DNA of 64,000 nucleotides, from positions 62,001-126,000 of the forward strand of contig JAFGSB010000070.1 in NCBI GenBank assembly GCA_016934825.1. Reading direction: 5' to 3'. Shown here piece by piece: positions 13,593-62,460 of the stretch; the first letter of the stretch is position 1, and every line of letters starts with the position of its first letter. Under the pieces are notes generated by a model. It had not been told where the DNA came from, did not search any database, and saw nothing but the letters and a program-made list of their open reading frames with translations. Source of the stretch: Candidatus Zhuqueibacterota bacterium (GTDB taxonomy: Bacteria; Zhuqueibacterota; Zhuqueibacteria; Residuimicrobiales; Krinioviventaceae). The position numbers and the translations under genes were made by a program.

Positions 13593-13745
13593 AAGACTCA
13601 CCTTTGTTTTGCGATTTTGTTATTATTTATCGGGATTAATTGTATAGTTAATTATATGAATATAATATTTTTATATCAACAAATAATATCAAAATAATAT
13701 ACGCGGGCACCTGTTTGTTGTTACAAAACGTTATCTGCAGGAGTT

Positions 13746-13773
13746 GCAACAAGGGGCTGCAGCCCCTTGTTGT
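13746..13773. repeat. Solo REP-like palindrome
   Basis: A perfect 26-bp inverted repeat: arms CAACAAGGGGCTG and CAGCCCCTTGTTG meet at the centre, with one flanking base on each side. It is the same family as the arrays beside the RAYT gene at 15321-15797. It lies between two minus-strand genes. Confidence 0.85.
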
Positions 13774-13861
13774 GTTGACATGTGTCAATAATAGTAAACC
13801 AAAGCACAGCTTTTATTCACTACTTTCGTCAAGTCCAACTTCGAACGCAGATAATTGAGTT

Positions 13862-13889
13862 ACAAAAAGGGGTAACTGCCCCTTGTTGT
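13862..13889. repeat. Degenerate solo REP-like palindrome
   Basis: ACAAAAAGGGG, a short centre, then CCCCTTGTTGT. The left arm carries mismatches to the family consensus. It ends 10 bp from the stop of the SUMF1-domain gene and could also act as part of its transcript end. Confidence 0.75.
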
Positions 13890-13899
13890 GTTTTTTCAA

Positions 13900-14715: not shown

Positions 14716-14882
14716 AAAATACCCCGCAGTTTAAATTGACTTTAGTTTATATAAAAACAGAAATTATGTAAAGTTTGTTCCTTTTGAAGGGGATAAATTT
14801 ATTTTTAAGATTGTCAATGCGATAAAAATTTGTTCCACAAGAGACATAATATTCTCTCATTCAATATGGATTAACAATCCAT

Positions 14883-15311
14883 ACAACAAGGGGTAGCTAC
14901 TACTTGTTGCATTACGGGTAGGTAATTTTTTACAACAAGGGGTGGCCACCCCTTGTTGTAATTACGGGCAGGCGGTCTTCTTGCAACAAGGGGCTGCAAT
15001 CCTATGTTGTTTGATAAGTAGGCGGTCTTCTTGCAACAAGGGGCTGCAATCCTATGTTGTTTGATGGGCAGGTGGTCCTTTTACATCAAGGGGCTGCAAT
15101 CCTATGTTGTTTGATGGGTAGGTGGTCCTTTTACAACAAGGGGCTGCAATCCTATGTTGTTTGATGGGCAGGTGGTCTTCTTGCAACAAGGGGTTGTACC
15201 CCCTTGTTGTAATTACGGGCAGGCGGTCTTCTTGCAACAAGGGGCTGCAGCCCCTTGTAGTAATAGGAGTAGGCAGTCCTGATACAATAAGGGACAGTTG
15301 CCCCTTGTTGT
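14883..15311. repeat. Tandem array of nine REP-like palindromes, 50-bp period
   Basis: Units of about 28 bp start at 14883, 14932, 14983, 15033, 15083, 15133, 15183, 15234 and 15284, so the step is 49-51 bp. The arms are variants of ACAACAAGGGG and CCCCTTGTTGT. The unit at 14932-14959 is a perfect palindrome, while units 3-6 share the same imperfect right arm (CCTATGTTGT), which indicates local duplication. Linkers of about 22 bp are also conserved and all contain (T/C)AGG, usually as GGGCAGG or GGGTAGG. That could be the short guide sequence RAYT proteins read 5' of a REP hairpin. Confidence 0.9.
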
Positions 15312-40711: not shown

Positions 40712-40880
40712 AATTTTGGTTTCATTACAGAATGAAAAGGGAAGCCGGTGAAAATCCGGCGCAGCCCCGCTACTGTGACGGGTTACAATAACCGCAATTG
40801 TCATCTAAGGACAAAGCCACTGGATTTTCCGGGAAGGCGCGGTTAAAGACTTGACACCCGGAGCCAGGAGACCTGCCAAA
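40712..40880 (+). ncRNA. Cobalamin riboswitch
   Basis: The conserved core is present in order: GGGAAGCCGGTGAAAATCC near 40739, GCAGCCCCGCTACTGTGACGG near 40761, the B12-box GCCACTGG near 40816, GGGAAGGCGCGG near 40831, and CCAGGAGACCTGCC at 40864-40877. It senses adenosyl- or related cobalamin and represses the gene after it. It lies 240 bp upstream of a BtuB-like receptor gene, and no other gene intervenes. Confidence 0.95.
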
Positions 40881-40936
40881 AATTAAGAGTGAGCAGCCTT
40901 CGCGGGTGAGGCATGCCGTCCTACTTCAAGGGAATA

Positions 40937-40968
40937 TTCCGTAGTTATAATACGGAAATTTTATTATT
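40937..40968 (+). terminator. Possible expression-platform terminator of the riboswitch
   Basis: Seven-bp stem TTCCGTA (40937-40943) and TACGGAA (40951-40957), followed by ATTTTATTATT. It is positioned where a ligand-controlled terminator would be expected. The stem is GC-poor, so control of translation instead cannot be excluded. Confidence 0.45.
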
Positions 40969-41120
40969 CTCACCTGAAAGTTTGTTCACAGCATTTTTTC
41001 AATCAGACAGTTTTTTATAACGAAACGTAAAATACCGGTTTACAGTTTGTTCCGGCATTTTCACTTGCGGTAAATAAAACTGTAAATAATCAATAACCAT
41101 AGAACATTTAAGGAGCAGCC

Positions 41121-43298
41121 ATGAACAAAACAATCAGGTTATTTTTTATAGGAATTTGGATGTTACATACTTTGGCGGCAGGGCTTTTGGGTGCAACCCT
41201 GACGGGCAGGGTTGTGGATATCGTCTCAAAAATGCCCATTTCCGACGTCAATGTTTCAATAGAAAATGAAAATATCGGCTCGGCCACAAATGCCGACGGC
41301 TTTTTTCACATTAAAAATACCCCAGCGGGCGCCTGCAGGTTAATTATTTCAGCAATTGGTTATAAACACGAAGAAATAATCAACCTGAGGTTGGGCGCCG
41401 GACAACAAAAAAATATTTACGTTGAGCTGACGCCGGTCGTTATTGAGGGTCAAAGTATCATGATAACCGCGACAAGGAACCGGTCTTTGCTGCGTGATCT
41501 GCCGGTTTCCGGGGCCATCATATCCGCTGATGTCCTGGAAAATAGAAATGTTATTTCCATCGGCGAAGCGATCAAACCGGTTTCAGGCTTGTCATTAAAA
41601 ACGTATGGCAGTACGGGCGCAATGGAAACCATTTCGCTGCGCGGCTCCACCTTTGAACAGGTGCTTATTTTATGGGACGGACAGCGTATCAATTCCCCTC
41701 TCAACGGCGGAATCGATTTGAGTACCATATCACTACAATCTTTGGAGAAAATCGAAATCGTACAGGATGGTTATTCGTCCCTGTACGGCGCCGATGCGAT
41801 GGCGGGCGTTGTCAATTTGATCAGTAAATCACATTCCAATGACGGTAAACTTCATGGTTCCATGAATACGACTCTCGGTTCATTCGGTTTACGAAAAACA
41901 AATCTGTCCGTCAATCAAGGCCTGGGGCATGTCAGCTATCTGCTTGCGGCCAACCGGATAACAAGCGACGGCGATTTCGAATACGAAAACAAAAATGCCG
42001 ACAACGGCAAAACCGAAGCCCTTGTCCGTAATAATGCCGGACTGGAACAAAATTCATATTTCGGTAAAATATCCTGGGACGTGTCGCCCGCAACCAAAAT
42101 AAACGCACTGGGCGAATGGACCAAAATAGACCGGGGCGTGCCAGGTTCCCTGGTCTATCCGACTGTCGACGGGGAACAGCAGGATGAAAGCGCCCGTTAC
42201 CATTTAAAACTGGAATCAACACCGGTAAATTATCTTACTTTCAGGGTCGGTACATTTTATCATAAACACAATATTCATTATGTTGACCGGAATCCCTATT
42301 TCCCGACCGACAGCCAGAATGACGCCGAATTTTACGGCTTAAATGTTCAGGGCGACATAAAAATAACCCGGCAAATCCTGGTATTCGGTTTTTCAATACA
42401 ACAGGATAACGGCGAGGGAAGCGATGTCGGGCACCATTCCAGGGACAACACCGCATTTTTTGCTTTCGGAGAATTCAATTTATTATCTTCCGGCAGTCCG
42501 TTTTCCATTATGGTGATGCCCTCTCTCCGGTTCGATTCTTTTTCCGATTTTGGCAATGTGGTCAATCCACGGATCGGACTTCTTCTATCCAAACCGGGAC
42601 TAAAATATTTAGGCCTGCGCGGCAGTTGGGGACGCTCTTTTCGCGCCCCTTCCTTTAACGACCTGTACTGGGCGGAGGATATGTTCACGAAAGGGAATCC
42701 CGATCTGGAAGTGGAAAAATCCGATAATTATGAAATCGGTTTGCGGGCCGACCTGCCGTTGGCGGGCGGTATGAGCGCGGATATATGTTACTTTGATAAA
42801 AATGCCGACAACCTGATCAATTGGGGGCTGGATTCAAAATCCGGTAAATTTATGCCGGACAATGTAAGCGCCGCCCGTTTATGCGGACAGGAGTTAACCA
42901 TTTCCGTCAGCAAACTGGCCGGGTTCCTGTCGACAGAACTGAATATTACGCGCATGTCCGCCATAAATAAAAGCGGCATCCCCGGACTGGACGGGAAAAA
43001 ATTAACTTACCGCTCTCCCCTTTCCGCCGGTCTGTCCGCCGGGGTTGATTTGAAAGCCATTCATATTACTTTAACGGCCACACACCTGGGTAAAAGATAT
43101 ACAAATGAAATGAATGAAAACTCGCTCGATCCACATACGGTGGTCGATGCGGATCTGGCATGTCAACCTGTCATTGGCAATATTAAATTTAATTTTATTT
43201 TATCGGTTTTGAATATGTTTGATGAAAAGTATACCATTGTAGAATCTTACCCCATGCCGGGCAGGATGTACAGGTTCATGGCCGGAATTGGTTTGTAA
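41121..43298 (+). CDS. btuB: TonB-dependent receptor, BtuB-like, with N-terminal carboxypeptidase-regulatory-like domain
   Basis: 725 residues. Signal peptide about 1-24. A CarboxypepD_reg-like domain (about 26-112, TLTGRVVDIVSKMPISDVNV) comes before the plug (about 115-235, ITATRNRS, SLRGSTFEQVLILWDGQRIN, SLYGADAMAGVVNLISK). A 22-strand-type barrel ends with an aromatic residue pattern (MYRFMAGIGL). AAGGAG precedes the ATG. Control by a cobalamin riboswitch makes cobalamin or cobinamide the likely cargo, taken up across the outer membrane with TonB energy. The corrinoid methyl-transfer genes downstream would use it. No BtuCDF transporter is in the window. Confidence 0.9.
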   Translation: MNKTIRLFFIGIWMLHTLAAGLLGATLTGRVVDIVSKMPISDVNVSIENENIGSATNADGFFHIKNTPAGACRLIISAIGYKHEEIINLRLGAGQQKNIYVELTPVVIEGQSIMITATRNRSLLRDLPVSGAIISADVLENRNVISIGEAIKPVSGLSLKTYGSTGAMETISLRGSTFEQVLILWDGQRINSPLNGGIDLSTISLQSLEKIEIVQDGYSSLYGADAMAGVVNLISKSHSNDGKLHGSMNTTLGSFGLRKTNLSVNQGLGHVSYLLAANRITSDGDFEYENKNADNGKTEALVRNNAGLEQNSYFGKISWDVSPATKINALGEWTKIDRGVPGSLVYPTVDGEQQDESARYHLKLESTPVNYLTFRVGTFYHKHNIHYVDRNPYFPTDSQNDAEFYGLNVQGDIKITRQILVFGFSIQQDNGEGSDVGHHSRDNTAFFAFGEFNLLSSGSPFSIMVMPSLRFDSFSDFGNVVNPRIGLLLSKPGLKYLGLRGSWGRSFRAPSFNDLYWAEDMFTKGNPDLEVEKSDNYEIGLRADLPLAGGMSADICYFDKNADNLINWGLDSKSGKFMPDNVSAARLCGQELTISVSKLAGFLSTELNITRMSAINKSGIPGLDGKKLTYRSPLSAGLSAGVDLKAIHITLTATHLGKRYTNEMNENSLDPHTVVDADLACQPVIGNIKFNFILSVLNMFDEKYTIVESYPMPGRMYRFMAGIGL

Positions 43299-43839
43299 AG
43301 TTTACAACCTGTTTTCCATTGAAAAATTACCACACCCCGGGGGCTGACAAACTCCGGGGTGTGAATAAAATCATGTATTAGCCCCGTACTGAAAAAATCC
43401 CATTCCCCCGGCGATACCGGCATTTTATTTGTACACAGGAAGTTAACCATGATCAGTATTTACCGGTAAACCAACTCTAAAACGGGATAAGCCGGTCTAT
43501 TGAATACCGACATAAACGAATCACCCTTTTAAAATAATTCTTTATTATAAATTTACAGTTTTCTTTTGTTTTCTAAATGTGATGTGATGTGATGTATTTT
43601 TTACTTGCATTTTATTTACGACTATATTAAATTCTACTTATAAACGAATTCAAAAAAAACCGCTTACCGTATATATAAACACTACATAACTGTTATTCGA
43701 ATAAACATCAAAAACAATTATTGGACAATATATATATAATCAAACAAAAAAAACTCCGCAAGCGTTAATATATAAATTGAAAAGGTAAGAGTGCGGCCGG
43801 GCAAATGTCCGTATATTGGTAATTTTAAATAATTTTTTT
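43299..43839. other. Intergenic region between btuB and the regulator gene
   Basis: 541 bp. It contains the terminator at 43331-43363 and a short pentanucleotide repeat (GATGT three times, 43581-43595). The remainder is AT-rich DNA that must carry the promoter of the regulator. No gene was recognised. Confidence 0.45.
43331..43363 (+). terminator. Terminator after btuB
   Basis: Perfect 10-bp arms CACACCCCGG (43331-43340) and CCGGGGTGTG (43354-43363), very GC-rich, 33 bp after the btuB stop. The T run is weak on the plus strand. A TAATTTTT run follows on the minus strand, so it may work in both directions. Confidence 0.65.
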
Positions 43840-44880
43840 ATGGAAACCGAACAAAAATTTATACCCATATACCAGCAGCTTTATGATTTTTATAAACAGG
43901 CCATACTGACCCAGGAATTCCCTCCCGGTTCACGGATCGATTCCATTAACCGTATAATCGGCCGTTTTAACGTATCCCGGGAAACGGCAAAAATGGTGTT
44001 AAATAAGCTTGCCGCCGATAAACTGATTCTGCAAAAGGCGGGTAAAGGTTCCTTTGTCGCGGATCTGGGACCCAGAAAAGCCGTCTGGGGTGTCGTAGTG
44101 CCGTTTTTTTCCGCCCAGATCGACAGCCTGTTGACCTTTTTAAGGGAATTCGCTTTTACAGCCGGTAAAAAAATGGAACATTTTATTGATTATAACAACT
44201 GGCAGGAGGAAATTCGGCTTGTCGGTACAATGATACAGCAGCGCTACGAAGCGGTTATTGTTGTCCCCACGCTGGATGAAACAAAAACCGCCGATTTTTA
44301 TAAACATCTGGTGTCCGGCGGAACGGTCGTCACATTACTCGATCATACCATGGCCGGGTCCTATTTCACCTATGCCATTCAGAGTTACGACCTTGGTGTA
44401 AAGCGGGCGGTTCAGTATTTGACGGACACAAACAATGGTAATCTGACTTTTATCAAAAATGGAATCTGGGCGGGACGAAATATGGTGCAGGAATTAATGG
44501 AAGGGACATTCAAAAACTTTGTCGAACAGGAAACCCCGGACCGGAAAGCCTTTGTACTGGACAATGTGCAGACCGTTACACCGGAATTTTTAACTCAAAA
44601 CAATATAACCGGTATCTTCTGCAGCGATGATGCCGACGCGATCCGAATTATCGGTCGTCTGTTACAATGGCATTCCCGGATCCCGGATGACATTTCTGTT
44701 ATCAGCTATGGTAATACCGATCTGGCAAAATATTTCACACCCAAAATAACGTCAATCGACAGCCACTGCAGGGAATTGGCCGAAAAGACAGCCGACATAA
44801 TCCGACAGCATTTAAACGGACAGGATGTCCGCTACAGCCAGTATGTTATACAACCTGATCTGATCATTCGGGATACGTAA
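43840..44880 (+). CDS. GntR-type regulator with LacI-like sensor domain
   Basis: 346 residues from ATG 43840; a TTG at 43816 adds only a leader of no domain. Residues about 8-78 are a GntR winged helix (FIPIYQQLYDFYKQAIL, PPGSRIDSINRIIGRFNVS, KAGKGSFVADLG). The remaining about 265 residues are a periplasmic-binding-protein-like sensor of the LacI/GalR kind (WGVVVPFFSAQIDSLL, ISVISYGNTDLAKYF, ITSIDSHCRELAEKTADII). Regulators with this AraR-like architecture mostly bind sugars. It stands 51 bp before the corrinoid operon and probably controls it, so the methylated substrate may be a sugar derivative. No clear Shine-Dalgarno site was seen. Confidence 0.85.
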   Translation: METEQKFIPIYQQLYDFYKQAILTQEFPPGSRIDSINRIIGRFNVSRETAKMVLNKLAADKLILQKAGKGSFVADLGPRKAVWGVVVPFFSAQIDSLLTFLREFAFTAGKKMEHFIDYNNWQEEIRLVGTMIQQRYEAVIVVPTLDETKTADFYKHLVSGGTVVTLLDHTMAGSYFTYAIQSYDLGVKRAVQYLTDTNNGNLTFIKNGIWAGRNMVQELMEGTFKNFVEQETPDRKAFVLDNVQTVTPEFLTQNNITGIFCSDDADAIRIIGRLLQWHSRIPDDISVISYGNTDLAKYFTPKITSIDSHCRELAEKTADIIRQHLNGQDVRYSQYVIQPDLIIRDT

Positions 44881-44931
44881 TATAACATGATCGATAGTAT
44901 GATGAATCAGAACGACGTATAAGGAGATGTA

Positions 44932-46554
44932 ATGAACAGCAAAGAACTTGTTCTCTCCGCAATGAAACGGTTACCGGTACCGCGGGTTCCCTGGGTCCCG
45001 TTTGTCGGCTGCCATGGGGGCGCGTTGATCTGCGTTAACGCAATTGAGTATTTAACAAATGAGAACAATCTGTTAAACGGTATCCGTAAAGCTATTCAAC
45101 GATACAATCCGGATGGTATTCCGGTGATGTTTGATTTACAGGTGGAAGCGGAAATCCTGGGTTGTGAACTGGTCTGGTCGGATGAAAATCCCCCCGCCGT
45201 GTCAACCCATCCTCTAACGGATGGAAAAACAATCAAAGATTTACATATCCCGGCAATCACGGAAGGCCGAATTCCGCTGATTATAAAAACCGCCAAAACC
45301 ATTCGCGGGGAATTCCCGGATATCGCACTTTACGGGCTGGTTACCGGTCCCTTTACGCTTGCCATGCACCTCGCCGGGACCGATCTGTTTATGAAAATGT
45401 ATGAAGAACCGGTCTATGTTGAAAAATTACTTCAGTTTTGTCGTGATGTTTCTATCGCCATGTCCGCTTACTATATTGACGCCGGCTGCGATATTATTGC
45501 CGTTGTCGATCCCCTGACAAGTCAAATCAGTGAAGAGCAGTTCCGGCAATATATCACTGAACCGGTCAAAAAAATTTTCCCTGCCGTTAAAAATAAAGGC
45601 GCATTAACTTCTTTCTTTGTCTGCGGACAAGCCCAGCATAACATAGAAGCCATGGCCGATTGTCAACCGGATAACATATCCATCGACGAAAATATCCCGC
45701 TGGATTTCGTTCGCGATATCTGTGAACAAAAAAATATCAGTTTTGGCGGCAACATGCAGTTGACGATGACCCTGCTGCTCGGCAATGAGACGGATGCACA
45801 GCAAAACGCTATGGAATGTATACAAACGGCGGGTAATACCGGTTTTATTCTGGCTCCGGGATGCGACTTGCCTTATGCGACACCACCGGAAAATTTGGAA
45901 GCCGTAACCCGTTTGGTTCGTGATCCCTATCAGCAGCAGGTGATTTCCACCCTGGAAAAACATAAATCAACTCCCGATATACCTGACATGAGCGATTACG
46001 GCGTGTCGGATAAAGTGATAATAGATATCATTACACTTGATTCAGAATCCTGCGCGCCCTGTCAATATATGGTAGAATCGGTAAAACAGATCGCGCCGCA
46101 ATTTAAAAATATTGTCGAGTGGCGCGAACATAAAATCAAACACAAGGAATCCATTCAGTTTATGACGGCGTTGATGGTTAAAAACATACCAACAATTTGT
46201 ATTGACGGCAAGATCACATTCGTTTCCAGAATTCCCGGCAAGCAGGAACTGATTCAGGCGATCCAGAAACGGATCAATGAAAAACTCTACCATAAAATCA
46301 GGGTACGAAAGGGATCAATTTTTATTTTGGGGCGCGATGACAACGAAATTCAACAGGTTAAGCCTGTCGTTGAACAAGCGATCCGGGAGCTTGGCGCCGA
46401 TGTTCCGCTTGTTGAAATATCTGATGAAAAGGAAATTCTCTCATTCGGTATTACAAGAACCCCGGCTGTAGTTACCGCTACTTATAAAATAAAATCTGAA
46501 GAAAAAGCGCCCTCGGTACCTGTTACAAAGGAATGGATAAAGGACCTGTTATGA
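44932..46554 (+). CDS. URO-D/MtaA-family methyltransferase fused to thioredoxin-like domains
   Basis: 540 residues behind AAGGAGA. Residues 1-345 are a uroporphyrinogen-decarboxylase-family barrel of the MtaA/CmuA kind (VTGPFTLAMHLAGTDLFMK, GCDIIAVVDPLTSQIS). The zinc pattern HxC...C of MtaA is partly lost: F229-V-C231 and C311. After a linker comes a thioredoxin/glutaredoxin-like domain (about 360-450) with C374-A-P-C377 and a cis-Pro-like NIPTICIDGK. A second, Cys-less domain of similar size closes it (about 452-540, RTPAVV). The fusion suggests a redox step, such as keeping the corrinoid or zinc thiols reduced. Its stop overlaps the next gene by ATGA. Confidence 0.82.
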   Translation: MNSKELVLSAMKRLPVPRVPWVPFVGCHGGALICVNAIEYLTNENNLLNGIRKAIQRYNPDGIPVMFDLQVEAEILGCELVWSDENPPAVSTHPLTDGKTIKDLHIPAITEGRIPLIIKTAKTIRGEFPDIALYGLVTGPFTLAMHLAGTDLFMKMYEEPVYVEKLLQFCRDVSIAMSAYYIDAGCDIIAVVDPLTSQISEEQFRQYITEPVKKIFPAVKNKGALTSFFVCGQAQHNIEAMADCQPDNISIDENIPLDFVRDICEQKNISFGGNMQLTMTLLLGNETDAQQNAMECIQTAGNTGFILAPGCDLPYATPPENLEAVTRLVRDPYQQQVISTLEKHKSTPDIPDMSDYGVSDKVIIDIITLDSESCAPCQYMVESVKQIAPQFKNIVEWREHKIKHKESIQFMTALMVKNIPTICIDGKITFVSRIPGKQELIQAIQKRINEKLYHKIRVRKGSIFILGRDDNEIQQVKPVVEQAIRELGADVPLVEISDEKEILSFGITRTPAVVTATYKIKSEEKAPSVPVTKEWIKDLL

Positions 46555-47468
46555 AAAGTATTCCCTTTTTTCTTGTTACCGGTTTCTTGGGAAGCGGTAA
46601 AACCACATTACTCGAAAGATTCATCAAATTATTTGCCGACAAAAAACGTATCGCGGTCATCCAGAACGAATTCGCACCGGGGCAGGTTGCGGGTCTTGAG
46701 TTATCCAGGACCGGAAAATCCTTCGAAATCCTGGAAATTAACCGCGGTTCGGTATTTTGCGTTTGTCTTATTTCGGATTTTGTAAAACTTTTACACGAAT
46801 TAATACATACCCGGCCGGTGGATGCGATTATATTGGAAGCAACAGGACTTGCCGATCCGATTGCCGTCGGTCAACTGCTCGAAGCCCGTAATTTAAAAGA
46901 CAGGGTTCATCTTGCTCATGTCTGGTGCGTCGTTGACGTGGTCAATTTTCAAAAATTATCACAAAACATGACGCGAATTATCCACCAGGTACAGGTCGCC
47001 GATACGGTTATTATAAACAAAACGGATTTAAGCAATACGGAACTGCCCGAAATAAAAGAAAAAATTAAATCCTTGAATCCCTTTGCCAAAATTTATGAAA
47101 CTTCTTATTGCGATGTATCCTTTAAAAACAAATTCACCGAATATGATGCACAAGCTGCCTCCCGGGATTATATAAACGGTGGAAATATTCAATCCGGTCC
47201 GCGTCCAAATCTGAATTCGGTTGTTTACAGGGACACAAAATCCATAAACCGAGAAAATTTTGAAAATTTTATAAAAATCATTGAAAAAAAGGTCTATCGT
47301 TTAAAAGGATTTGTTAAATTAGAAAATAATTCGTTAATTGCCGTACAATCATGCTTTGGGATCACAATAACAGAGAACATAGAAAATATTTCCGGTCAAA
47401 CCGAATTTATCGCCATCGGTCCCGGAATCGACCATAAACAATTCAGAGATCTGCTAAATTCTAATTGA
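46551..47468 (+). CDS. G3E GTPase of the CobW/COG0523 family
   Basis: 305 residues from the ATG in the ATGA overlap at 46551, with AAAGGA upstream. P-loop GFLGSGKTTLLERF, switch region EILEINRGSVFCVC, Walker B ILEATGLADP, and the guanine-specificity motif NKTD. The metal motif CxCC of this family is reduced to CVCL. G3E members load metals or reactivate cobalamin enzymes (as MeaB-type GTPases do). Here, between a methyltransferase and a corrinoid protein, a role in corrinoid-protein assembly or repair is likely, by inference. The C-terminal CobW_C domain (from about 215) is short. Confidence 0.85.
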   Translation: MKSIPFFLVTGFLGSGKTTLLERFIKLFADKKRIAVIQNEFAPGQVAGLELSRTGKSFEILEINRGSVFCVCLISDFVKLLHELIHTRPVDAIILEATGLADPIAVGQLLEARNLKDRVHLAHVWCVVDVVNFQKLSQNMTRIIHQVQVADTVIINKTDLSNTELPEIKEKIKSLNPFAKIYETSYCDVSFKNKFTEYDAQAASRDYINGGNIQSGPRPNLNSVVYRDTKSINRENFENFIKIIEKKVYRLKGFVKLENNSLIAVQSCFGITITENIENISGQTEFIAIGPGIDHKQFRDLLNSN

Positions 47469-47489
47469 AAATACAGGAAAGGGACAATT

Positions 47490-48149
47490 ATGAATGATTT
47501 GATCGGACAAATTTCTATTTGTATAGAACGCGGAAAAGTAAACAAAGCCGCTCCGTATCCCCCGGACATGAGAGAACAGGACGGGGCAGATGAACTGACA
47601 AAGCAGGCAATCGATGACGGGATTGATCCCAACGAAATTTTACATGGCTGTATGATGGGTATGCAGAAAATCGGGGAAAAGTTTTCAAGAAATGAAGCCT
47701 TTGTTCCGGAACTGCTCATGTCGGCCAAAGCCATGACCGCTGTAATGGCGCACTTGAAACCATTTTTCCAGTCCGGGAATGTAAAAAGGAAAGGAAAGTT
47801 CGTCATCGGCACGGTCGCGGGCGATTTACACGATATCGGTAAAAAACTGGTTGCGATGGTTGTGGAAGGTAACGGTTGGGATGTTATCGATCTTGGTGTG
47901 GATGTATCAGCCGATAAATTTATTGCGGCAATTGACGAACATCCCGGTTGTATTGTGGGAATGAGCGCCTTATTGACAACCACTATGGTCAACATGGAAA
48001 AATCAATTCAGGGTATCAGGGCAAAACATCCCGGCACTAAAGTGATCGTCGGCGGCGCGCCGTTAAGTACAGAATATGCTAATAAAATACATGCGGACGG
48101 ATATGCTGCGGATCCACAGGGAGCAGTTAATCTGTTGAATGGCTTTTAA
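47490..48149 (+). CDS. Corrinoid (B12-binding) methyltransferase protein, MtaC/MtbC-like
   Basis: 219 residues, the usual size. An N-terminal helical cap (about 1-90, LTKQAIDDGIDPNEILHGCMMGMQKIG as the B12-binding-2 pattern, cited in part) and a Rossmann cobalamin domain (about 102-219) with D112-L-H114-D-I-G117, whose His takes the lower-axial position on cobalt. MSALLTTTM and IVGGAPL are the other cofactor loops. It carries a methyl group between a donor methyltransferase and an acceptor enzyme. AAAGGGACA precedes the ATG. It lies 21 bp after the GTPase gene and 11 bp before a URO-D paralog, which fits a three-component methyltransferase system. Confidence 0.92.
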   Translation: MNDLIGQISICIERGKVNKAAPYPPDMREQDGADELTKQAIDDGIDPNEILHGCMMGMQKIGEKFSRNEAFVPELLMSAKAMTAVMAHLKPFFQSGNVKRKGKFVIGTVAGDLHDIGKKLVAMVVEGNGWDVIDLGVDVSADKFIAAIDEHPGCIVGMSALLTTTMVNMEKSIQGIRAKHPGTKVIVGGAPLSTEYANKIHADGYAADPQGAVNLLNGF

Positions 48150-48160
48150 ATTTTCCCTGT

Positions 48161-49162
48161 ATGGAAAATAAAAAACCGGACATCTGCGCCGCGCTCGCGT
48201 GTGAACAGCCGAAAAATGCTGTTCCAATATGGGAGCTTGAATTTCATCTCTGGAACTGTTTCAGTCCAAAACGGGTGATACTGGGAACGGAATTCTTAAC
48301 ATTATCCTCCGGAGATCAGGAAAAAACTCTTCATGAAAATGCAGAGATTATGTTTGCCGTAAGCCGGGAATTACAATTTTCAGCATTAACGATACCCGGC
48401 GGCTACTGGGAAATCGCTCCCGGAGTACCTGCCTATTACTGGCTTCCCGATGAAGCCCGTATTGAACAGACAAAAATATTGAAACGGGTGGTTTCAGATA
48501 ACCTCATGCTTATGGCGGTTACAGGGGGCGTATTGGCCATTCCCGAAGCGAATGATTATATTTCTTTCTCCACAAAGTTGCTGGAAGCCCCGGAAGAAAT
48601 CGACGATTTAGCACAACGATGCTGGTTTCAGGGAATCGAACAGGGCAAAAAATTCAGCGATCTTGGCGTAGAGGGATTGATCACGGCATCCGATATTGCG
48701 GAAAATCGAGGTCCGTATTTCAATCCTGAACAACTGCGGCGGTTTATTTTTCCGTATTTGCACAAATGGGCGCTGGAGGTTAAATCGCTGGGTGTATTTC
48801 CGATCCTGCATACGGACGGCAATGTAGAATCCTGCCTGGATGAAATTGCCCAAAGCGGTATTTCCGCTCTGCAGGCTATTGATCCCGTAGCGGGAATGGA
48901 TATAATAAGAGTGAAAAACCGGATTGGCGACAAGGTCTGTCTGTGCGGCAACGTGGATTGCGGTCTTTTTCTGAACGGGACCCCGGAACAGATTTACAAA
49001 ACGACCACCGATGTTTTACAGGCCTGTAAAACCGGCGGCGGTTTTGTACTGGGGGCTTCCAACGTTATTCAGCCGCAGGCGCCCAAAGAGAATGTTCTTG
49101 CCATGATCGAGGCATGGCGGCATTATGGTTCTTATAAACCTGTTACTGATAAACGGTTATAA
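48161..49162 (+). CDS. URO-D-family protein with altered zinc motif
   Basis: 333 residues with a URO-D/MtaA-type TIM barrel: VEGLITASDIAENRGPYF, FPILHTDGNVESCLDEIAQ, ICLCGNVD-like VCLCGNVDCG, LGASNVIQP. The zinc pattern HxC...C reads H217-T-D219 with no Cys at the third site. It therefore probably binds substrate in another way, as in HemE-like or CmuA-unlike members. It starts 11 bp after the corrinoid gene. It may be the substrate-side methyltransferase, which usually differs most between systems. An intrinsic terminator follows at 49221. Confidence 0.82.
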   Translation: MENKKPDICAALACEQPKNAVPIWELEFHLWNCFSPKRVILGTEFLTLSSGDQEKTLHENAEIMFAVSRELQFSALTIPGGYWEIAPGVPAYYWLPDEARIEQTKILKRVVSDNLMLMAVTGGVLAIPEANDYISFSTKLLEAPEEIDDLAQRCWFQGIEQGKKFSDLGVEGLITASDIAENRGPYFNPEQLRRFIFPYLHKWALEVKSLGVFPILHTDGNVESCLDEIAQSGISALQAIDPVAGMDIIRVKNRIGDKVCLCGNVDCGLFLNGTPEQIYKTTTDVLQACKTGGGFVLGASNVIQPQAPKENVLAMIEAWRHYGSYKPVTDKRL

Positions 49163-49220
49163 TGACTGTATAACTGCTTACAGAGAATACCCGGAGTTTG
49201 ATAATAGTGGCTAAAATTCC

Positions 49221-49247
49221 TGTTCGGGAAAAACGAACACTTTTTTT
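49221..49247 (+). terminator. Intrinsic terminator after the second URO-D gene
   Basis: Six-bp stem TGTTCG (49221-49226) and CGAACA (49234-49239) with a seven-base loop. The right arm is followed by C and seven T residues. It is short, so termination may be partial and allow read-through into the homocysteine methyltransferase gene. Confidence 0.55.
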
Positions 49248-49370
49248 CAGAAACACTGTTAATCCCATGTTCAAAGGATGGGTATAAAAAAAACAATTTG
49301 TAAATTTATCTTATATTCCTTATATAATAAATAACATTGACTGTACGGACCATTTTATTCTGAAGAAATA

Positions 49371-50273
49371 ATGATGAAAAAAATAACAAAAAAATTAAAA
49401 GACAAAAAAGTACTGGTATCGGACGGCGCCTGGGGTACGTTCCTGCATCAAAAGGGTTTGCCGGCGGGTCAATGCCCGGAATCCTGGAATTTAACACACC
49501 CCGATAAAGTTTTGGATATCCCTGTCCAGTATATCAGGGCCGGGGCCGATATGGTGCTGACCAACAGCTTTGGCGCAAGTCCGTTCAAACTGAAACACTA
49601 TGGATTACAGGACAAAGTATTTGCGATCAACAAGGCGGCGGCGGAAATTTCCCGGCGTGCGGCCGGACCGGACCGTTTTGTGCTCGGCTCTATAGGGCCC
49701 ACGGGTGTTATTCTTATGATGGGCGAGGTTAGCGATCAGGAACTTTACGACGGATTCAAACAGCAGGCCAAAGCGCTTGAAGCCGGCGGTGCTGACGCCG
49801 CCTGCATTGAGACCATGTCGGCACTGGATGAAGCCGTAATAGCCGTAAAAGCCGTTAAAGAAAACACGGATATGGAGATCATTTGCACTTTTACTTTTGA
49901 AAAAACGGTCAATAATGATTACCGGACAATGATGGGTGTTTCCCCGGCGGACATGCTTGTCATGCTGAAAAAAAAAGGGGTGGATATCATCGGCACCAAT
50001 TGCGGCAACGGTTTTCAAAGAATGATCGATATCGTCAAAGAAATCCGTTCGATGGATTTATCGATACCCCTTATTGTACACGCCAATGCGGGAAAACCTG
50101 ACGTACAGGACGGTAAAACGATTTTCCCTGAAACGCCGGAAAAAATGGCGGGATTCGTTCCTGAAATCATGGCTGCAGGAGTAAATATCATCGGCGGCTG
50201 CTGCGGGACAACCCCGGAACATATTCGACACATCAAACAGGCAGTGACCTTGCAGGAAAAAAATGACAAATAA
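49371..50273 (+). CDS. Homocysteine S-methyltransferase (MetH N-terminal module-like)
   Basis: 300 residues matching the homocysteine-binding domain of cobalamin-dependent methionine synthase: VSDGAWGTFLHQKG, NSFGASPFKL, SIGPTG, and the zinc ligands C211 (GTNCG) with C277 and C278 (GGCCGTTPEHI). The spacing is nearly that of known MetH modules. It would accept a methyl group from the corrinoid protein and make methionine. It has no folate or cobalamin domain of its own. Two ATGs in a row (49371, 49374) are both possible. It overlaps the next gene by 11 bp. Confidence 0.92.
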   Translation: MMKKITKKLKDKKVLVSDGAWGTFLHQKGLPAGQCPESWNLTHPDKVLDIPVQYIRAGADMVLTNSFGASPFKLKHYGLQDKVFAINKAAAEISRRAAGPDRFVLGSIGPTGVILMMGEVSDQELYDGFKQQAKALEAGGADAACIETMSALDEAVIAVKAVKENTDMEIICTFTFEKTVNNDYRTMMGVSPADMLVMLKKKGVDIIGTNCGNGFQRMIDIVKEIRSMDLSIPLIVHANAGKPDVQDGKTIFPETPEKMAGFVPEIMAAGVNIIGGCCGTTPEHIRHIKQAVTLQEKNDK

Positions 50274-50982
50274 AAATAAAACATTAATTGATCGAGTATA
50301 CACGTTTAACCCCGACAACAGTGAACTTGTTGTCGCTCCCGAAATCATACGTATGAACATTGGTTATCCGCGTAACCATAATGATAATCATATTGATGAA
50401 ATGATAGACAAAGTCATTCGGCTCTCGAAGGAAAAGATAGATATTCAAAGCGGTTTTAAAATATATGATAATATTGAGATATATCCGAACAGGACCGGTA
50501 TGGAAATCGGCGGTAAAGAATTCCAAACTCAAAAAATAATTACCAGTCAGATGAGAAAAGCCGAATCGGCTGCGCTGTTTTTATGTACAATCGGGCCGCA
50601 AATGGAAAACTGGTCCCAGGAATTGATTCAGGAAGGTGAACTTCTCAGGGGCTATATTGTTGATGCGGTTGCGTCGGAATCCGTGGAAAAGGCCATGGAT
50701 TTGACACACGATTATCTGGAACAGCTAATGCGACAGGAAGGTCTGGGTATTACCAACCGTTTCAGTCCCGGTTACTGCAGATGGCCCGTTTCCGATCAAC
50801 ATATATTATTTTCATTATTACCGCCGGGTTTTTGCGGGATCACCCTGACCGAATCGTCGCTGATGGTTCCAGTAAAATCGGTCAGTGGTTTTATCGGCAT
50901 CGGCCCGGATGCAAAAAGACAGGATTACGCATGTAATATATGTGATGATACCACCTGTTTCAGAAAAAAAATTAAGAGTTGA
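50263..50982 (+). CDS. MetH activation-domain-like protein (reductive corrinoid reactivation)
   Basis: 239 residues like the S-adenosylmethionine-binding activation domain at the C-terminus of MetH: SELVVAPEIIRMNIGYP, FLCTIGPQMENW, YIVDAVASESVEKAMD and the key RFSPGYCRWPVSDQ. In MetH this domain remethylates cobalamin after it oxidises to Co(II). A tail with three cysteines (CNICDDTTC) may bind metal or take part in electron transfer. The 11-bp overlap with the homocysteine module shows translational coupling. Together with the corrinoid protein they make three of the four parts of MetH as separate chains. Confidence 0.88.
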   Translation: MTNKNKTLIDRVYTFNPDNSELVVAPEIIRMNIGYPRNHNDNHIDEMIDKVIRLSKEKIDIQSGFKIYDNIEIYPNRTGMEIGGKEFQTQKIITSQMRKAESAALFLCTIGPQMENWSQELIQEGELLRGYIVDAVASESVEKAMDLTHDYLEQLMRQEGLGITNRFSPGYCRWPVSDQHILFSLLPPGFCGITLTESSLMVPVKSVSGFIGIGPDAKRQDYACNICDDTTCFRKKIKS

Positions 50983-51239
50983 TAAAAAAATACTCTGCTT
51001 AAAAAAATTGCAGATTTTACCGGTATGATAAAAATATTATTACAGATTAACTCCCTGTATTTCCGACCAGAGAATATTTTGTTCCTTTATACAGTGCGGC
51101 TGCCATACTAAAACAAGCATATAAAAAATGTACTCCGGCTGACGGTTCGGGCAATCATTTACCCGATTACATCAAACAGGAATTATTATGGTTTAATAGA
51201 AACCGCGTGGATATTTATTAAAAAACGAGAAATATAAAC

Positions 51240-52256
51240 GTGAATTCATGGGAACGATTTAGGAAAAGATTAAAAGGCGAAACCGTAGACCGGCCGCCAA
51301 ACTTTGATATCATGATGACATTTGCCTGTCATTATATTAACGAGCCCCTTTGCCGTTATTATCAGGATTACCGTGTATTATGTGAAGCGAATTTAGCCGT
51401 CCTGGAGGCATTCGATCTCGACATTGTCCAGGCCATATCCGATCCGTACCGGGAAGCTGCGGACTTTGGCGCGAAAATAGAATTCCCGGAAAACGGTTTG
51501 CCAATATGTAAGGAGCCACTGATCCGGCAGGAATCCGACCTGAAAAGACTTGTCCCGGTAAATCCGGCATCCGGGAAGCGTATGAATGACCGCCTCGAAG
51601 CCGTATCATTATTTAGACAACATGTGGGTGGACAGGTGCCGGTTATGGGCTGGGTTGAAGGCGCAATGGCGGAAGCCGCGGACCTGCGCGGCGTCAGTAC
51701 TGTATTAATGGATATTTTTGAACGGCCCGAATGGCTCAAGGAACTCCTGGAGATTTGCGTTGAAACGGGAATCAATTTTGCCCGCGCCCAGATCGATGCC
51801 GGAGCCGATATTATCGGACTGGGAGATTCCGTGGTGTCCCAGGTATCCCCGCAACAGTATGAAGAATTCGCATTACCATACCAGCAGCGGATCTTTTCGG
51901 CCGTGAAGGAAATGGGGGCCGTACCCAGACTGCATATCTGCGGAAATACGTCTTTGATATTGAACCAGATGGCGCAGAGCGGGGCCGAGATCATCGATCT
52001 TGACTGGATGGTTGATTTCGGAAGCGCCGCCAGATTATACGGCGATTATCCGGTCATTTGCGGTAATTTCGATCCCGTCAAAGTGCTTTTACAGGGCACA
52101 CCGGCACTGGTCAAAATGGAAACCCTGAAATGCCTGCAAACCGGCGGACCGCGTTGTATCAATATGGCCGGCTGTGAAGTCCCATTTGAGACCCCCTATG
52201 ATAACCTTCTGGCCCAGACGAAAGCCATAAAAGAATTCGGCTCCGGATTATCATAA
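51240..52256 (+). CDS. URO-D/MtaA-family methyltransferase with intact zinc motif
   Basis: 338 residues from GTG 51240. SWERFRKRLKGETVDRPPNF is the typical family N-terminus, which supports the non-ATG start, and no in-frame ATG exists nearby. The barrel shows VMGWVEGAMAEAADLRG, GADIIGLGDSVVSQVSP and the full zinc pattern H232-I-C234 with C312 (AGCEVP), as in MtaA and MtbA. Zinc activates a thiol or thiolate acceptor of the methyl group, or the substrate. It lies 257 bp after the reactivation gene and may have its own promoter. It is the best candidate here for a working MtaA-type enzyme. Confidence 0.87.
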   Translation: MNSWERFRKRLKGETVDRPPNFDIMMTFACHYINEPLCRYYQDYRVLCEANLAVLEAFDLDIVQAISDPYREAADFGAKIEFPENGLPICKEPLIRQESDLKRLVPVNPASGKRMNDRLEAVSLFRQHVGGQVPVMGWVEGAMAEAADLRGVSTVLMDIFERPEWLKELLEICVETGINFARAQIDAGADIIGLGDSVVSQVSPQQYEEFALPYQQRIFSAVKEMGAVPRLHICGNTSLILNQMAQSGAEIIDLDWMVDFGSAARLYGDYPVICGNFDPVKVLLQGTPALVKMETLKCLQTGGPRCINMAGCEVPFETPYDNLLAQTKAIKEFGSGLS

Positions 52257-57462: not shown

Positions 57463-60400
57463 TTAAATGGATAAATGTTTTCTTCTGATTGAGCTTCTTA
57501 AATATAATCCGGAAAGTAAAAGTCCTGCTGAAATGCCAAGGAAAACAATTAATCCGGAAATAGCAGTACTGGCATACTTGAGAGTTTGCGTACCACTGGA
57601 TAATGTATAAATAGTCGTTATATGTTGACCCGCGGGAAGCCGGACAGCATACCCAAGTTCCCCCCGGGTAACCTGAGTGTCATAGTTTTTGTCATCCAGA
57701 ATAATTTCCGTTGGTTCTTCAGATAATATGATAACATTGGGAACCAGCGATTGATACTTTATTTCAATACCTCTGGATATAATTTTTGTTGATAAAAGTT
57801 CTCCGGAAATATCGACAAGCCGGGTATTGGACTTAAATCGTTTAATAAACCGACTTGTCCTGGATACGGGTTGAATGAGATGTTTGCCAGGCGGCAGTAT
57901 TACCCGTCCCTGATAATATGCAGGCCACAATTCACCATTGACGATCACATCCTTATGAGCTTTATAATCGAGCAAAGTATTGACCGTATAGGGTGTATTA
58001 ATTTCCCACCCTTCATCAGTTATATTCTCTTTAGCCTCTATTGCCATGATATAAGGAATAATCGGGAAATCAACTTCATATAAACTGGCTTCCGAATACA
58101 TAGCCACGCGCGTATTTCCATTTCCGGCCGCTTTTGCCAGACTGTATAATTCCAGTCCCGTTGGCTGTGCGGTTGGCGCCTGGGTTATTTTCATGTCCCT
58201 GATTGGAACCACATTTATATCAAGAATAAAGGGATATTTTTCCTTTACGGATGAATATGCGTCGATCAGTTTAGTATAACGATCCGGCCCCAATGCCCAT
58301 AATGGTAACGGGTCCTCAATTTGGATAGTGAAAGGGTATTCATCCGCCAATTCTAGAATACGAAATGTATTGACACCGGTCCCCTTTCCCACCTCAGGTG
58401 AAAAGATATTATCAACAGAAGTAACTATTATTTCCCAATCCAAATCATTTTGTTCTTTAAGTTGATAGAGAAAATTAAGGAATTCATCATGCAATTTAAC
58501 AATGTGTTCTTCACGAAAATCAAAAAATTTATTGACAGCCGTTGGATTTCTTTTCCAATAATAAGGTGTATTCGGATTAAATAAAGACAATGGGTCAAAA
58601 CCATATTCAGTTCTAAATAAATTACGCATATACTCATTCAAAGGCGTAAAATTTTCAGGTTGCTCATAACCCTTGGGGGATTCATAATATAATTCGGCGA
58701 AATTGATCCCATCCCAATCATAACTTGTCAATATTTTGCGTAGTTCATCAAATACTGCCTGTTTACATTCCGGGATATCCAGAGCCATATTACTGCGCCA
58801 ATCCACCCGGGCGTCCCTGCCGGTGGCGGTTTTTTCACGCCATTCCGGATGTTCCAGCCAGAATTTTTCACTGACATGCGGCAGTTCCGTCCAGGCATAC
58901 ACCAGCATTGCATTCTGATGCGCTAACCTGATTAACCTTTCATAATCATAGGTATAGGCCTCGTAAAAATGCCAGGCGGATACATAGATTCGTCTTACGC
59001 CGTTATTTCGCCATATTTTAACCAGGTCTTCAATACTGATGTCTTCCCTGTCCCCCGGTTCAAAATATATCTCCACCGTGTTACGGCGAACCGTTGGTAC
59101 AAGGTTAAATTGCCGATTCAATAAATCAATAAAATAAGGAAATCGTCCGAATCCATATTCCGTATTAGGGTCAAATAAAGTAGCAAAGTAGAGATATTTA
59201 CCGGTGCCGTATTCACCACCGATCACGACCGGCAACTCGGATTTTTTATCATTGTAATAGGATACATATTCAATATCCAGATCAAAGGCCCGCACGGTAT
59301 CAGGTTTTTTCCAGTTTATATTCACCTGGGGGAAATATTCATCAATGACCTGGTCGGTAATCGCCACCTCCTCGCCGGGAATAATACCAATATTTTGACT
59401 TAATTCTGAATTTTTCTCCAAAATCAGATTCAATCCGTTTTGCAGGGCGTAAATCAGAAACAAATTCTGTTGAGAATTGAGGTTCCGTGCAGCAGTTTGC
59501 GGGACAATTAATAAATTGACACCTTCGGGAACCTCGATCAGATTTTTTATATCAATAGATTTGACGTCAATGCCGACACTCTCTATCGCATGAATAAAAT
59601 TATACTGATCCCGTCCGGCACGCTCTGTTACTGTGCTATCCACAAGTACGGCTGCCCTGATCGGCGTCGCGTCGGCATCCATGAGTGATTTTTCATCCGG
59701 ATTAAAAATTGTACTGGTCAATTTGGGTACGGAAGGAATGATCGAATTAAAGGTTTGTGCAAAAAAGCCCTGAGGTAAATTGTCAACTTTTTCTGCGACA
59801 TATACCCACCCGGCAGGCGTTACAATCTGTTTTTGTATACTGCCATTGATCGTGGAATCAGAATAGGTTTCATCCCGGATATGTCCTTTTTCATCATAAT
59901 AAAACTCGTGTAAATATTCATCGTTTAAATCCAGATTTATCTCATTTTCCCCACTCACCACACGAAAGCCGGGGGCGGTTACAAAATTGTCGGTATATCG
60001 CGGCGACGTAAACTGATAGCCAAGTTTTTTCAAACCCGGGATGATATCCTTTAATGCGGAGTGGTCGACAAAGGTATGAAAGAAAAAACTGGCGACGCCG
60101 TCCCGTATCGCTAAATTATTTTTTGCCGCCTGTAACATGGGGCCCGCATCGGGCCGGCTTAACGGAATGTAACCCAGATTTTCCGGGATGATTTGTCCGC
60201 CTGATGTATGATTATAGATCATATAGGGCAGCAGTTGATCCGTTCCATGCAGATCAATGGTTTGCCGCCGTTCATAAGCTGTGCTGAAAAATGAGTTCAT
60301 GATCGGATAGTCCAACTGGGAAGCGGCATAATGGGGCGTTTCCCAGCTTAACGGATATATCCCATTTTTTTTCAATTCATCGAATCCTGTGAACAGCTTT

Positions 60401-62460
60401 TGCCTGACATATTCCTTTGAATCGGCAAAAAGCGGTTTGCTCGTCATACTGTCCCAAAATTCGTAATCAGCCGTCGTTTCACCCCTGTATTGATGGGTAG
60501 TGCCGTGCATGATGATCGTGCCGCCGGAGTTCTGGATTTTTTTGATCTCTTTAACAAAATCAGGCCGGTCAGTCAATGTAGCCGCCGTATTGGATTCGGG
60601 ATCCAGATAAAATGGAACCAGTGCTACGGAAAATGGTACATTTTGTGATTTTAAATAACCCACCACTCTTTTCAGTGATTCGATATTTGTGAATGGATTG
60701 ATATCTTCTACCCGGATTAAAGCCAGTTTTTTGGCCATGTGGTCTTCACGGACAATGTCATGCAGCAGATCACTGATAACAATATGACGTCCGCCCTCGG
60801 TCACAAAAGAAGTGGGCAAATCAGCGAAATACCACAAATTGCCACTACGAACTGTATACGGTAACTGGCTTGTACCATTTGTCATCGATGCCAATTCAAC
60901 ACATTTTGTTGAATCCGTTATATTAATCTTATGATACGAGGGATCGATGCGGGGCAGGGAATAACCTTTAAATGAAACCTGTGTATATAAAGAATCCTGC
61001 AACGGTTTTTCATATTCGAAACCAAAACGGTCTTCGCCGGCAATATCCAGCAACTGTTCGATTCCGTAATTTACCCAGCATAACGTGCCATCGAATTTGT
61101 TAATTGCTTTCAAAATATCCGGTGGAATGGTAAATTTTGGATCAACACCAATATAAAATAAAGCATTTATGCTGTCCAGTTCAAAAGGACTCATTTGATA
61201 ATTATCATCAAATAATACAATTCTGACTTTGGTTTTAAAATGACTCAAAAGACTTGCTATTTGTTTCGCGTCATTTTCACCGCGCGGATCACTATAAACA
61301 ATAATATTTTTTGTGGGTACATAGGTTAATGAACTTTGAATGGTTTCCCATGCGTTCTGTGAATCCAGCAGGTGCGTATCATATATGTCGATATGTTCAA
61401 TACCCGCCTCTTTAACTATACGGATACTTTGAGCCAATAAATCAGCATCAACCTTCGATTCCCCAAAAGAAGTGATTTCCAAATGGCCGATGACCGTTGC
61501 TCGTTCATTTACCTGCCGCAAAACCTCGTGCACCGCATCTGTAAGCCATTCAGGCTTAAAAACTCTTCTGTTTTGAAAATAGTCTGCCCATTGCTGCCAC
61601 ATCAATTCGATGTTGATCCAATCCGGTTTTGTTTTGTTGTTTAATACACCTTCTAAATCGAATCCCGTTTTTGATATTTGCTCCCTGGCAGAAAAGATCC
61701 GTCCGTTATCGTGAACACTTGCCACAGTCGTAATACAGACCTTTTTGTCAATACTTTGTACCAGTTCTACTGTTTCATTTAAGGTGCGGGTTAATCCTTC
61801 CGATGTGGACAATTCGTTTTCACGGTGTTTTGAGCAATATCCGCAAAAGCATTGATGCCCGCTCCAATTTATTATAGGTTCTGCAATATCAACTCCGTCC
61901 AAATCTTTATAATTGTTCAATATATCTTTGATAAATCCAAGCCACCATTCCCGTACCTGTGGATTTGCCGGGCATAAAAAATAACTGTCCTCCGTCGGAT
62001 GATAATCGCTTCCGTCAGCTGATTTGACGCGCCATTCGGGATGCTGGTCCCAGGCCGATTTGTGTAGAAAAGCAGGTATCCACGCTATTACCCGGATTTC
62101 ATTTTGTTTGGCCGTTTTGAGAATATGCTTGAGCAGGTCAAATCGGCCATAGTCGGCCATAACATTCAAAGAATAGGATGTTTTGTATTTTGCGCCGTAT
62201 ATTGGATCATATGCCTTATAAAAAACGGTGTTAACGTTGGAACTTTTCCATTTTAATACCAGTTCCTCTGCCATTTTATCAATTTTTAAAGGTGAGTCAT
62301 AGTAATATGAAGGATCAAAACGGACGGCGTTAATCTGATTGGGTACGGGATCGAGATTTAGATAACTTTCGGCCGCCAGAGCAGAATGAACCCCACTTAT
62401 TTCCACAATAATAATAAACGATAATATCATAAGGGGTGATTTTAGATTGATATTAAACAT
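57463..62460 (-). CDS. Giant exopolysaccharide-modifying protein: two glycosidase-like TIM barrels around a DUF2334 deacetylase
   Basis: 1665 residues. Signal peptide (about 10-29), then a first GHL10/PgaB-like TIM barrel (about 35-390: VNTVFYKAYD, IRVIAWIPAFLH, DGVDIAEPIINW) and a Rossmann-like segment (about 395-500). A DUF2334-type polysaccharide deacetylase follows (about 580-850: ALIRVEDINPF, IIMHGTTHQY, LSWETPHYAAS), then a second Rossmann domain (about 980-1140) and a second barrel (about 1150-1500: VRRIYVSAWHFYEAY, LVYAWTELPH, WDGINFAELYYES). A beta domain and one C-terminal transmembrane helix with RRKH complete it. PelA and PgaB combine hydrolase and deacetylase in the same way. It should deacetylate and trim the polymer in the periplasm. 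Confidence 0.82.
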   Translation of the reverse strand: MFNINLKSPLMILSFIIIVEISGVHSALAAESYLNLDPVPNQINAVRFDPSYYYDSPLKIDKMAEELVLKWKSSNVNTVFYKAYDPIYGAKYKTSYSLNVMADYGRFDLLKHILKTAKQNEIRVIAWIPAFLHKSAWDQHPEWRVKSADGSDYHPTEDSYFLCPANPQVREWWLGFIKDILNNYKDLDGVDIAEPIINWSGHQCFCGYCSKHRENELSTSEGLTRTLNETVELVQSIDKKVCITTVASVHDNGRIFSAREQISKTGFDLEGVLNNKTKPDWINIELMWQQWADYFQNRRVFKPEWLTDAVHEVLRQVNERATVIGHLEITSFGESKVDADLLAQSIRIVKEAGIEHIDIYDTHLLDSQNAWETIQSSLTYVPTKNIIVYSDPRGENDAKQIASLLSHFKTKVRIVLFDDNYQMSPFELDSINALFYIGVDPKFTIPPDILKAINKFDGTLCWVNYGIEQLLDIAGEDRFGFEYEKPLQDSLYTQVSFKGYSLPRIDPSYHKINITDSTKCVELASMTNGTSQLPYTVRSGNLWYFADLPTSFVTEGGRHIVISDLLHDIVREDHMAKKLALIRVEDINPFTNIESLKRVVGYLKSQNVPFSVALVPFYLDPESNTAATLTDRPDFVKEIKKIQNSGGTIIMHGTTHQYRGETTADYEFWDSMTSKPLFADSKEYVRQKLFTGFDELKKNGIYPLSWETPHYAASQLDYPIMNSFFSTAYERRQTIDLHGTDQLLPYMIYNHTSGGQIIPENLGYIPLSRPDAGPMLQAAKNNLAIRDGVASFFFHTFVDHSALKDIIPGLKKLGYQFTSPRYTDNFVTAPGFRVVSGENEINLDLNDEYLHEFYYDEKGHIRDETYSDSTINGSIQKQIVTPAGWVYVAEKVDNLPQGFFAQTFNSIIPSVPKLTSTIFNPDEKSLMDADATPIRAAVLVDSTVTERAGRDQYNFIHAIESVGIDVKSIDIKNLIEVPEGVNLLIVPQTAARNLNSQQNLFLIYALQNGLNLILEKNSELSQNIGIIPGEEVAITDQVIDEYFPQVNINWKKPDTVRAFDLDIEYVSYYNDKKSELPVVIGGEYGTGKYLYFATLFDPNTEYGFGRFPYFIDLLNRQFNLVPTVRRNTVEIYFEPGDREDISIEDLVKIWRNNGVRRIYVSAWHFYEAYTYDYERLIRLAHQNAMLVYAWTELPHVSEKFWLEHPEWREKTATGRDARVDWRSNMALDIPECKQAVFDELRKILTSYDWDGINFAELYYESPKGYEQPENFTPLNEYMRNLFRTEYGFDPLSLFNPNTPYYWKRNPTAVNKFFDFREEHIVKLHDEFLNFLYQLKEQNDLDWEIIVTSVDNIFSPEVGKGTGVNTFRILELADEYPFTIQIEDPLPLWALGPDRYTKLIDAYSSVKEKYPFILDINVVPIRDMKITQAPTAQPTGLELYSLAKAAGNGNTRVAMYSEASLYEVDFPIIPYIMAIEAKENITDEGWEINTPYTVNTLLDYKAHKDVIVNGELWPAYYQGRVILPPGKHLIQPVSRTSRFIKRFKSNTRLVDISGELLSTKIISRGIEIKYQSLVPNVIILSEEPTEIILDDKNYDTQVTRGELGYAVRLPAGQHITTIYTLSSGTQTLKYASTAISGLIVFLGISAGLLLSGLYLRSSIRRKHLSI

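Follow-up and report, generated by a model that had tools for sequence, protein, structure and literature searches.

A conserved gene cluster predicted to pass methyl groups from a corrinoid protein to homocysteine without a folate subunit

Gene content and active-site residues

A 64,000-nucleotide stretch of the genome of a Candidatus Zhuqueibacterota bacterium (GenBank assembly GCA_016934825.1, 5.39 Mb; contig JAFGSB010000070.1, positions 62,001 to 126,000, hereafter the window) carries a cluster of corrinoid and methyltransferase genes. Seven genes spanning positions 44932-52256 lie on the forward strand, several of them overlapping or nearly so. The first encodes UDT (44932-46554, 540 aa), a protein with URO-D and thioredoxin-like domains, and overlaps by 22 bp the gene for a G3E (CobW-type) GTPase (46533-47468). 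These are followed by a corrinoid protein (47490-48149), the divergent URO-D protein uroD2 (48161-49162), the MetH-type homocysteine methyltransferase HMT (S-methyl_trans, PF02574; 49371-50273), a stand-alone MetH activation domain recognised by domain match and here termed ACT (Met_synt_B12, PF02965; 50263-50982), whose gene overlaps that of HMT by 11 bp, and the MtaA-like URO-D protein uroD3 (51240-52256). Rfam and domain searches recovered every feature that an earlier note on this DNA had named. The cluster is a real, conserved and apparently undescribed arrangement that is predicted to serve corrinoid methyl transfer to homocysteine, has no folate subunit and exists beside an ordinary MetH.

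In the URO-D methyltransferase superfamily, a His-Cys-Cys site has been linked to sulfur or selenium substrates, and a carboxylate or other substitution to oxygen substrates (PMC10418091). In an alignment of 68 URO-D proteins, uroD3 and the related proteins of these clusters have the sulfur-type His-Cys-Cys site, and UDT has Phe-Cys-Cys, which we count as a sulfur-type site. The site of uroD2 is His217-Asp219-Asn301, of the oxygen type, with all three residues invariant in 24 aligned sequences; other uroD2-like proteins vary, with His at the first position, Cys or Asp at the second and His, Asp or Asn at the third. The predicted structure of uroD2 (pLDDT 88.7) has the M. mazei URO-D methyltransferase 4ay7 as its best match in the PDB, and the protein also matches CdmB weakly (E 2e-7). 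Judged by its residues, uroD2 is a candidate substrate O-demethylase.

UDT consists of a URO-D methyltransferase-type domain, a Thioredoxin_3 domain with a CxxC motif (374/377) and a third, TIGR00412-like domain; this thioredoxin-like C-terminus had gone unnoticed in the earlier note. Its site residues Phe229, Cys231 and Cys311, together with His146 and the CxxC motif, are invariant in 78 of 78 sequences. The catalytic motifs of the other components are also kept, including DxHxxG (D112-H114-G117) in the corrinoid protein, the Zn ligands Cys211, Cys277 and Cys278 in HMT, those of ACT, and the motif of the G3E GTPase, whose CxC is invariant in 64 of 64. The corrinoid protein is MtgC/MtbC-like and scores best with the MtgC model, under the NCBIfam cut-offs. 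HMT would catalyse the methyl-corrinoid:homocysteine step and ACT the S-adenosylmethionine (SAM)-dependent reductive reactivation of the corrinoid, and the G3E GTPase is probably a metallochaperone or corrinoid-loading factor.

Relation to MetH and to described corrinoid systems

The earlier note had described the cluster as lacking a folate module, and this is confirmed by the absence of PF00809 from it. Searching the whole available assembly (95.4% complete) with PF00809, we found no free methyl-corrinoid:folate methyltransferase. The only two matches are folP and an 801-aa MetH, both on contigs other than that of the cluster, leaving no candidate methyl-corrinoid:tetrahydrofolate (THF) enzyme apart from MetH itself and no pterin-binding protein beside the set that could act as methyl donor. 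The MetH, which the earlier note had not seen, combines homocysteine, folate and cobalamin modules and has no activation domain; similarly, the MetH of the same-genus genome G037 is an 805-aa frame with no room for one. Because MetH lacks this domain, ACT, the sole PF02965 match in the genome, is probably shared with it. The genome also encodes a homocysteine methyltransferase/MTHFR-type fusion, as well as one RACo-type activase (the sole RACo_C_ter match, on contig C174) that does not adjoin methyltransferase genes. The earlier view of the set as the methionine synthase of the cell is not supported, and we reject the cluster as sole methionine synthase, as MetH is present too. On this gene content, folate-dependent methionine synthesis is expected to run parallel to the cluster, which would be an extra route to methionine.

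Several described systems share parts of this design. Canonical MetH has homologous modules for homocysteine, cobalamin and activation, but PF02574, PF02607/PF02310 and PF02965 lie here on separate proteins, PF00809 is missing from the cluster and a MetH coexists with it. Type 1 mlp gene clusters (Kountz and Balskus 2023, PMC10418091) likewise combine several URO-D homologues with a corrinoid protein and no folate methyltransferase, and uroD3 has the corresponding His-Cys-Cys site. In agreement with their definition, at least two URO-D genes (here three) and a corrinoid protein gene lie close together on one strand with no THF methylase within 20 kb. However, the window cluster contains no Ram/RACE reductive activase, for which reason we did not accept it as a type 1 mlp cluster, and it differs further in its MetH-type HMT, its ACT, its G3E GTPase, the thioredoxin-fused Phe-Cys-Cys UDT and the oxygen-type uroD2. 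The split MetH, or MtgBCDE, of roseobacters (Phaeobacter inhibens; Ruegeria pomeroyi, PMC12478193) also has separate homocysteine and cobalamin modules and passes methyl groups from a free corrinoid protein to homocysteine, but does so with the pterin-binding MtgD and the pfam06253 protein MtgB, neither of which is in the window cluster. Folate-independent methylation of homocysteine is known from MesA-MesD, with a corrinoid donor proposed for MesA-C (PMC7857596); their catalytic domain is of the MetE type, unlike the MetH-type PF02574 domain found here.

A further parallel is with the three-component URO-D corrinoid demethylases (MtvB, OdmB, VdmB and MtoB, and CdmB for chloromethane; PMC13222342), in which a URO-D substrate:corrinoid methyltransferase works with a small corrinoid protein. 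In line with such a methyltransferase I (MT I), uroD2 has a carboxylate-containing site in a predicted URO-D fold. Some known URO-D MT I members carry no metal (PMC13222342), so an oxygen-type site is not a universal feature of the class. These demethylases use another kind of methyltransferase II and a separate activating enzyme, whereas the window cluster has HMT and ACT. Going by its sequence, the cluster thus departs in a defining feature from MetH, type 1 mlp clusters, split MetH and MesA-D alike.

Conservation of the UDT unit and changes at the locus

A scan of the genome collection with an alignment of the UDT proteins of the window and of G037 returned 355 relatives, which appear to form an undescribed family. 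The best 80 of the 355 share 53-74% identity and come from Bacteroidota (many of them Prolixibacteraceae), Planctomycetota, KSB1/Calditrichota, Lentisphaeria, Chitinivibrionales, a Spirochaetaceae metagenome-assembled genome and others. We counted genes within 5 kb of UDT at 76 loci, among them 36 from Bacteroidota and 19 from Planctomycetota; L054 is the G037 locus and L058 the G014 locus (L194), and these pairs are not independent. G3E lies near UDT at 62 of 76 loci, and in Bacteroidota the corrinoid protein (31/36), HMT (28/36) and ACT (13/36) occur there as well. In Planctomycetota UDT-G3E alone is the usual unit (G3E 13/19, corrinoid protein 1/19, HMT 0/19). A plasmid search gave only remote URO-D matches apart from one at 41%.

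Every UDT genome checked (25/25) encodes a stand-alone PF02574 protein (frames of 293-330 aa), which in planctomycetes is encoded away from UDT, elsewhere in the genome. This adds to the partial support for the proposal of the earlier note that methyl groups reach homocysteine without folate. A MetH-sized frame (805-1275 aa) is present in 22 of the same 25 genomes, which argues against the unit being a disassembled MetH and for the cluster as an additional methionine route. Across 82 genomes of the phylum, with kinship ignored, stand-alone HMT occurs in 23 of 27 genomes with UDT versus 33 of 55 without (Fisher p=0.018) and is associated with a stand-alone corrinoid protein (p=1.7e-6); UDT and a stand-alone corrinoid protein show no significant association (p=0.064). 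The genomes G042, G043 and G036 contain a uroD3-corrinoid-HMT unit, and ACT lies next to it in the first two. A 62-aa uroD2 fragment in G041 looks like a remnant only and was set aside. URO-D paralogues are very numerous in some single genomes of the phylum (24 matches in G056), which suggests a large uncharacterised repertoire. At L056 a glycyl radical enzyme gene (12769-15153) follows UDT-G3E, with an MFS transporter in front; the enzyme is PFL-like, and its best NCBIfam equivalog, 4-hydroxyproline dehydratase, scores under the cut-off.

Upstream of the seven genes, also on the forward strand, a cobalamin riboswitch (RF00174; 40700-40894; 115.7 bits, with the gathering score at 31.5) lies 5' of a gene for a BtuB-like TonB-dependent receptor (41121-43298). 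The best NCBIfam match of the receptor is TonB-B12, far under the equivalog cut-off, and its role would be corrinoid uptake. Neither a riboswitch near the G037 cluster nor btuB in the 20 kb around it was found, and none of 16 other loci yielded a cobalamin riboswitch. We therefore reject the riboswitch as a conserved part of the unit: the system is riboswitch-linked, as the earlier note had put it, at this locus, and the linkage with riboswitch and BtuB is local. Next on the same strand is a transcriptional regulator (43816-44880) with a GntR helix-turn-helix and a LacI-type sugar-binding sensor domain. Its homologues at 51-75% identity are found in G037, L058, L059, L091 and L196, the last four being distant loci where the regulator accompanies corrinoid genes at 51-58% identity. 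The Prolixibacteraceae have an AraC-type regulator in this position instead, in many cases close to a GntP permease.

The gap between ACT and uroD3 (50983-51239) holds two short collinear pieces of URO-D similarity, found by targeted tblastn (E 0.011 and 0.21). G037 has an intact fourth URO-D between ACT and uroD3, and the weakly matching forward-strand segment at about 51105-51204, missed in the earlier note, is probably the remnant of the C-terminus of such a protein. Elsewhere, the window encodes a 1665-aa protein with DUF2334 and glycosyl-hydrolase-like domains (GHL10, GHL6; 57463-62460) and an arylsulfotransferase (ASST) homologue with a C-terminal sorting domain (7665-9899).

The methyl donor and the proposed route to methionine

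In order to rationalise this gene set, we infer a modular three-component corrinoid demethylation system whose acceptor is homocysteine rather than tetrahydrofolate or coenzyme M, a reading to which we assign a probability of roughly 55%. Functionally the cluster would resemble a three-component corrinoid demethylase to which the homocysteine half of MetH has been added. An external methylated compound, plausibly an O-methyl sugar or glycoside, would donate a methyl group that the URO-D methyltransferases load onto the Co(I) of the corrinoid protein, with uroD2 as the substrate-specific, oxygen-type methyltransferase and uroD3 and UDT as constant partners. HMT would then transfer the methyl group from methyl-Co(III) to homocysteine, yielding methionine, ACT would re-reduce the cofactor with SAM whenever Co(I) becomes oxidised, and the G3E GTPase would supply metal or cofactor. 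The folate-dependent MetH would work in parallel.

Plant and algal polysaccharides contain O-methylated sugars. The earlier note had seen a hint of a sugar donor in the regulator, and glycoside hydrolase (GH) genes beside uroD2-class genes elsewhere make the hint suggestive. Such neighbours include GH2 in L058 and a GH29 fucosidase in L161 (each with a 4-bp overlap), GH38 in L166, where UDT and G3E are present too, GH120-type in L100, and GH20 in L174 and L175. GxGYxYP proteins and sodium:solute symporters also adjoin uroD2-class genes, and in L115 an aceric acid hydrolase gene lies 5' of a cluster. The closest uroD2 orthologue outside the genus (G013, locus L047; 54%) is placed among GH9 and apiosidase-like genes. 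We found nothing direct in the literature on corrinoid demethylation of O-methyl sugars or on URO-D proteins in polysaccharide loci; the only sugar demethylation route encountered in the literature searched is oxidative, with a P450 that acts on 6-O-methylgalactose and releases formaldehyde (PMC10033563).

Several observations weigh against the proposed route. The neighbours chosen for annotation were hand-picked, in part for their size, with no background rate to set them against, so that the sugar reading is a lead. Several distant uroD2-like genes adjoin a nitrilase or peptidase gene instead; one such subfamily is next to a protein of about 265 aa with a nitrilase-type N-terminus (L167, L170, L172, L174, L177 and L197), CN_hydrolase being confirmed for the L170 neighbour and an SSF symporter present in L172 too. 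The sister operons of G042, G043 and G036 contain the sulfur-type uroD3 and no uroD2, and in Planctomycetota UDT almost never adjoins a corrinoid protein or HMT gene. The orphan RACo-type activase could do the job assigned to ACT. Finally, methionine is a small methyl sink, and bulk demethylation would therefore need another outlet.

An O-methyl sugar is thus a plausible donor, and an S-methyl compound is its main rival. In the latter case, which we regard as unlikely overall but the most serious of the alternatives, uroD3 and UDT would demethylate a methyl-sulfur or methyl-selenium compound and feed the methyl group to homocysteine, with uroD2 as an accessory. Such demethylation has been proposed for type 1 mlp clusters (PMC10418091), and the sulfur-type sites of the two constant URO-D proteins, the resemblance of uroD3 to MtaA and the operons without uroD2 would all fit it, as would selD in this genome (G000:C113:13679-14602), which scores over its cut-off and whose one in-frame TGA suggests selenocysteine use; yet the neighbours examined included no recognised sulfur or selenium genes, sugar genes lie beside several clusters or uroD2-class genes, and the cluster has no Ram/RACE gene. 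Demethylation of lignin-type aryl methyl ethers or of betaines and other N-methyl compounds, again with homocysteine as acceptor, seems to us distinctly improbable, as aromatic-degradation or MttB-type genes were not recognised in or beside the cluster and its sensor and neighbours are carbohydrate-like, although URO-D O-demethylases for methoxyaromatics are known and described as close CdmB relatives (PMC13222342), uroD2 itself has some CdmB similarity, and the best model for the corrinoid protein, under its cut-off, is MtgC. Least likely of all is that the cluster mainly maintains MetH, with ACT reactivating that enzyme and the remainder forming a minor side system: the short MetH frames of this genome and of G037 and the single PF02965 match would agree with it, but ACT is also kept in Bacteroidota clusters whose MetH frames (1104-1275 aa) are of sufficient length for an activation domain of their own, and the conserved corrinoid-UDT-HMT-G3E set would be left unexplained.

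If the proposed demethylation with homocysteine as acceptor applies beyond this genome, the cluster may represent a widespread, undescribed O2-independent route by which anaerobic polysaccharide degraders strip O-methyl groups from sugars and deliver them by way of a free corrinoid protein directly to homocysteine, exchanging one URO-D enzyme for another to suit different methylated sugars; we put this wider generalisation forward tentatively and consider it the less probable outcome. The core is testable, since Draconibacterium aestuarii Z1-6 (L088) and Mariniphaga sediminis SY21 (L095), both named strains, have homologues. An anaerobic corrinoid route feeding methionine would, if true, close a gap in the carbon cycle and assign a function to a family with at least 355 loci.

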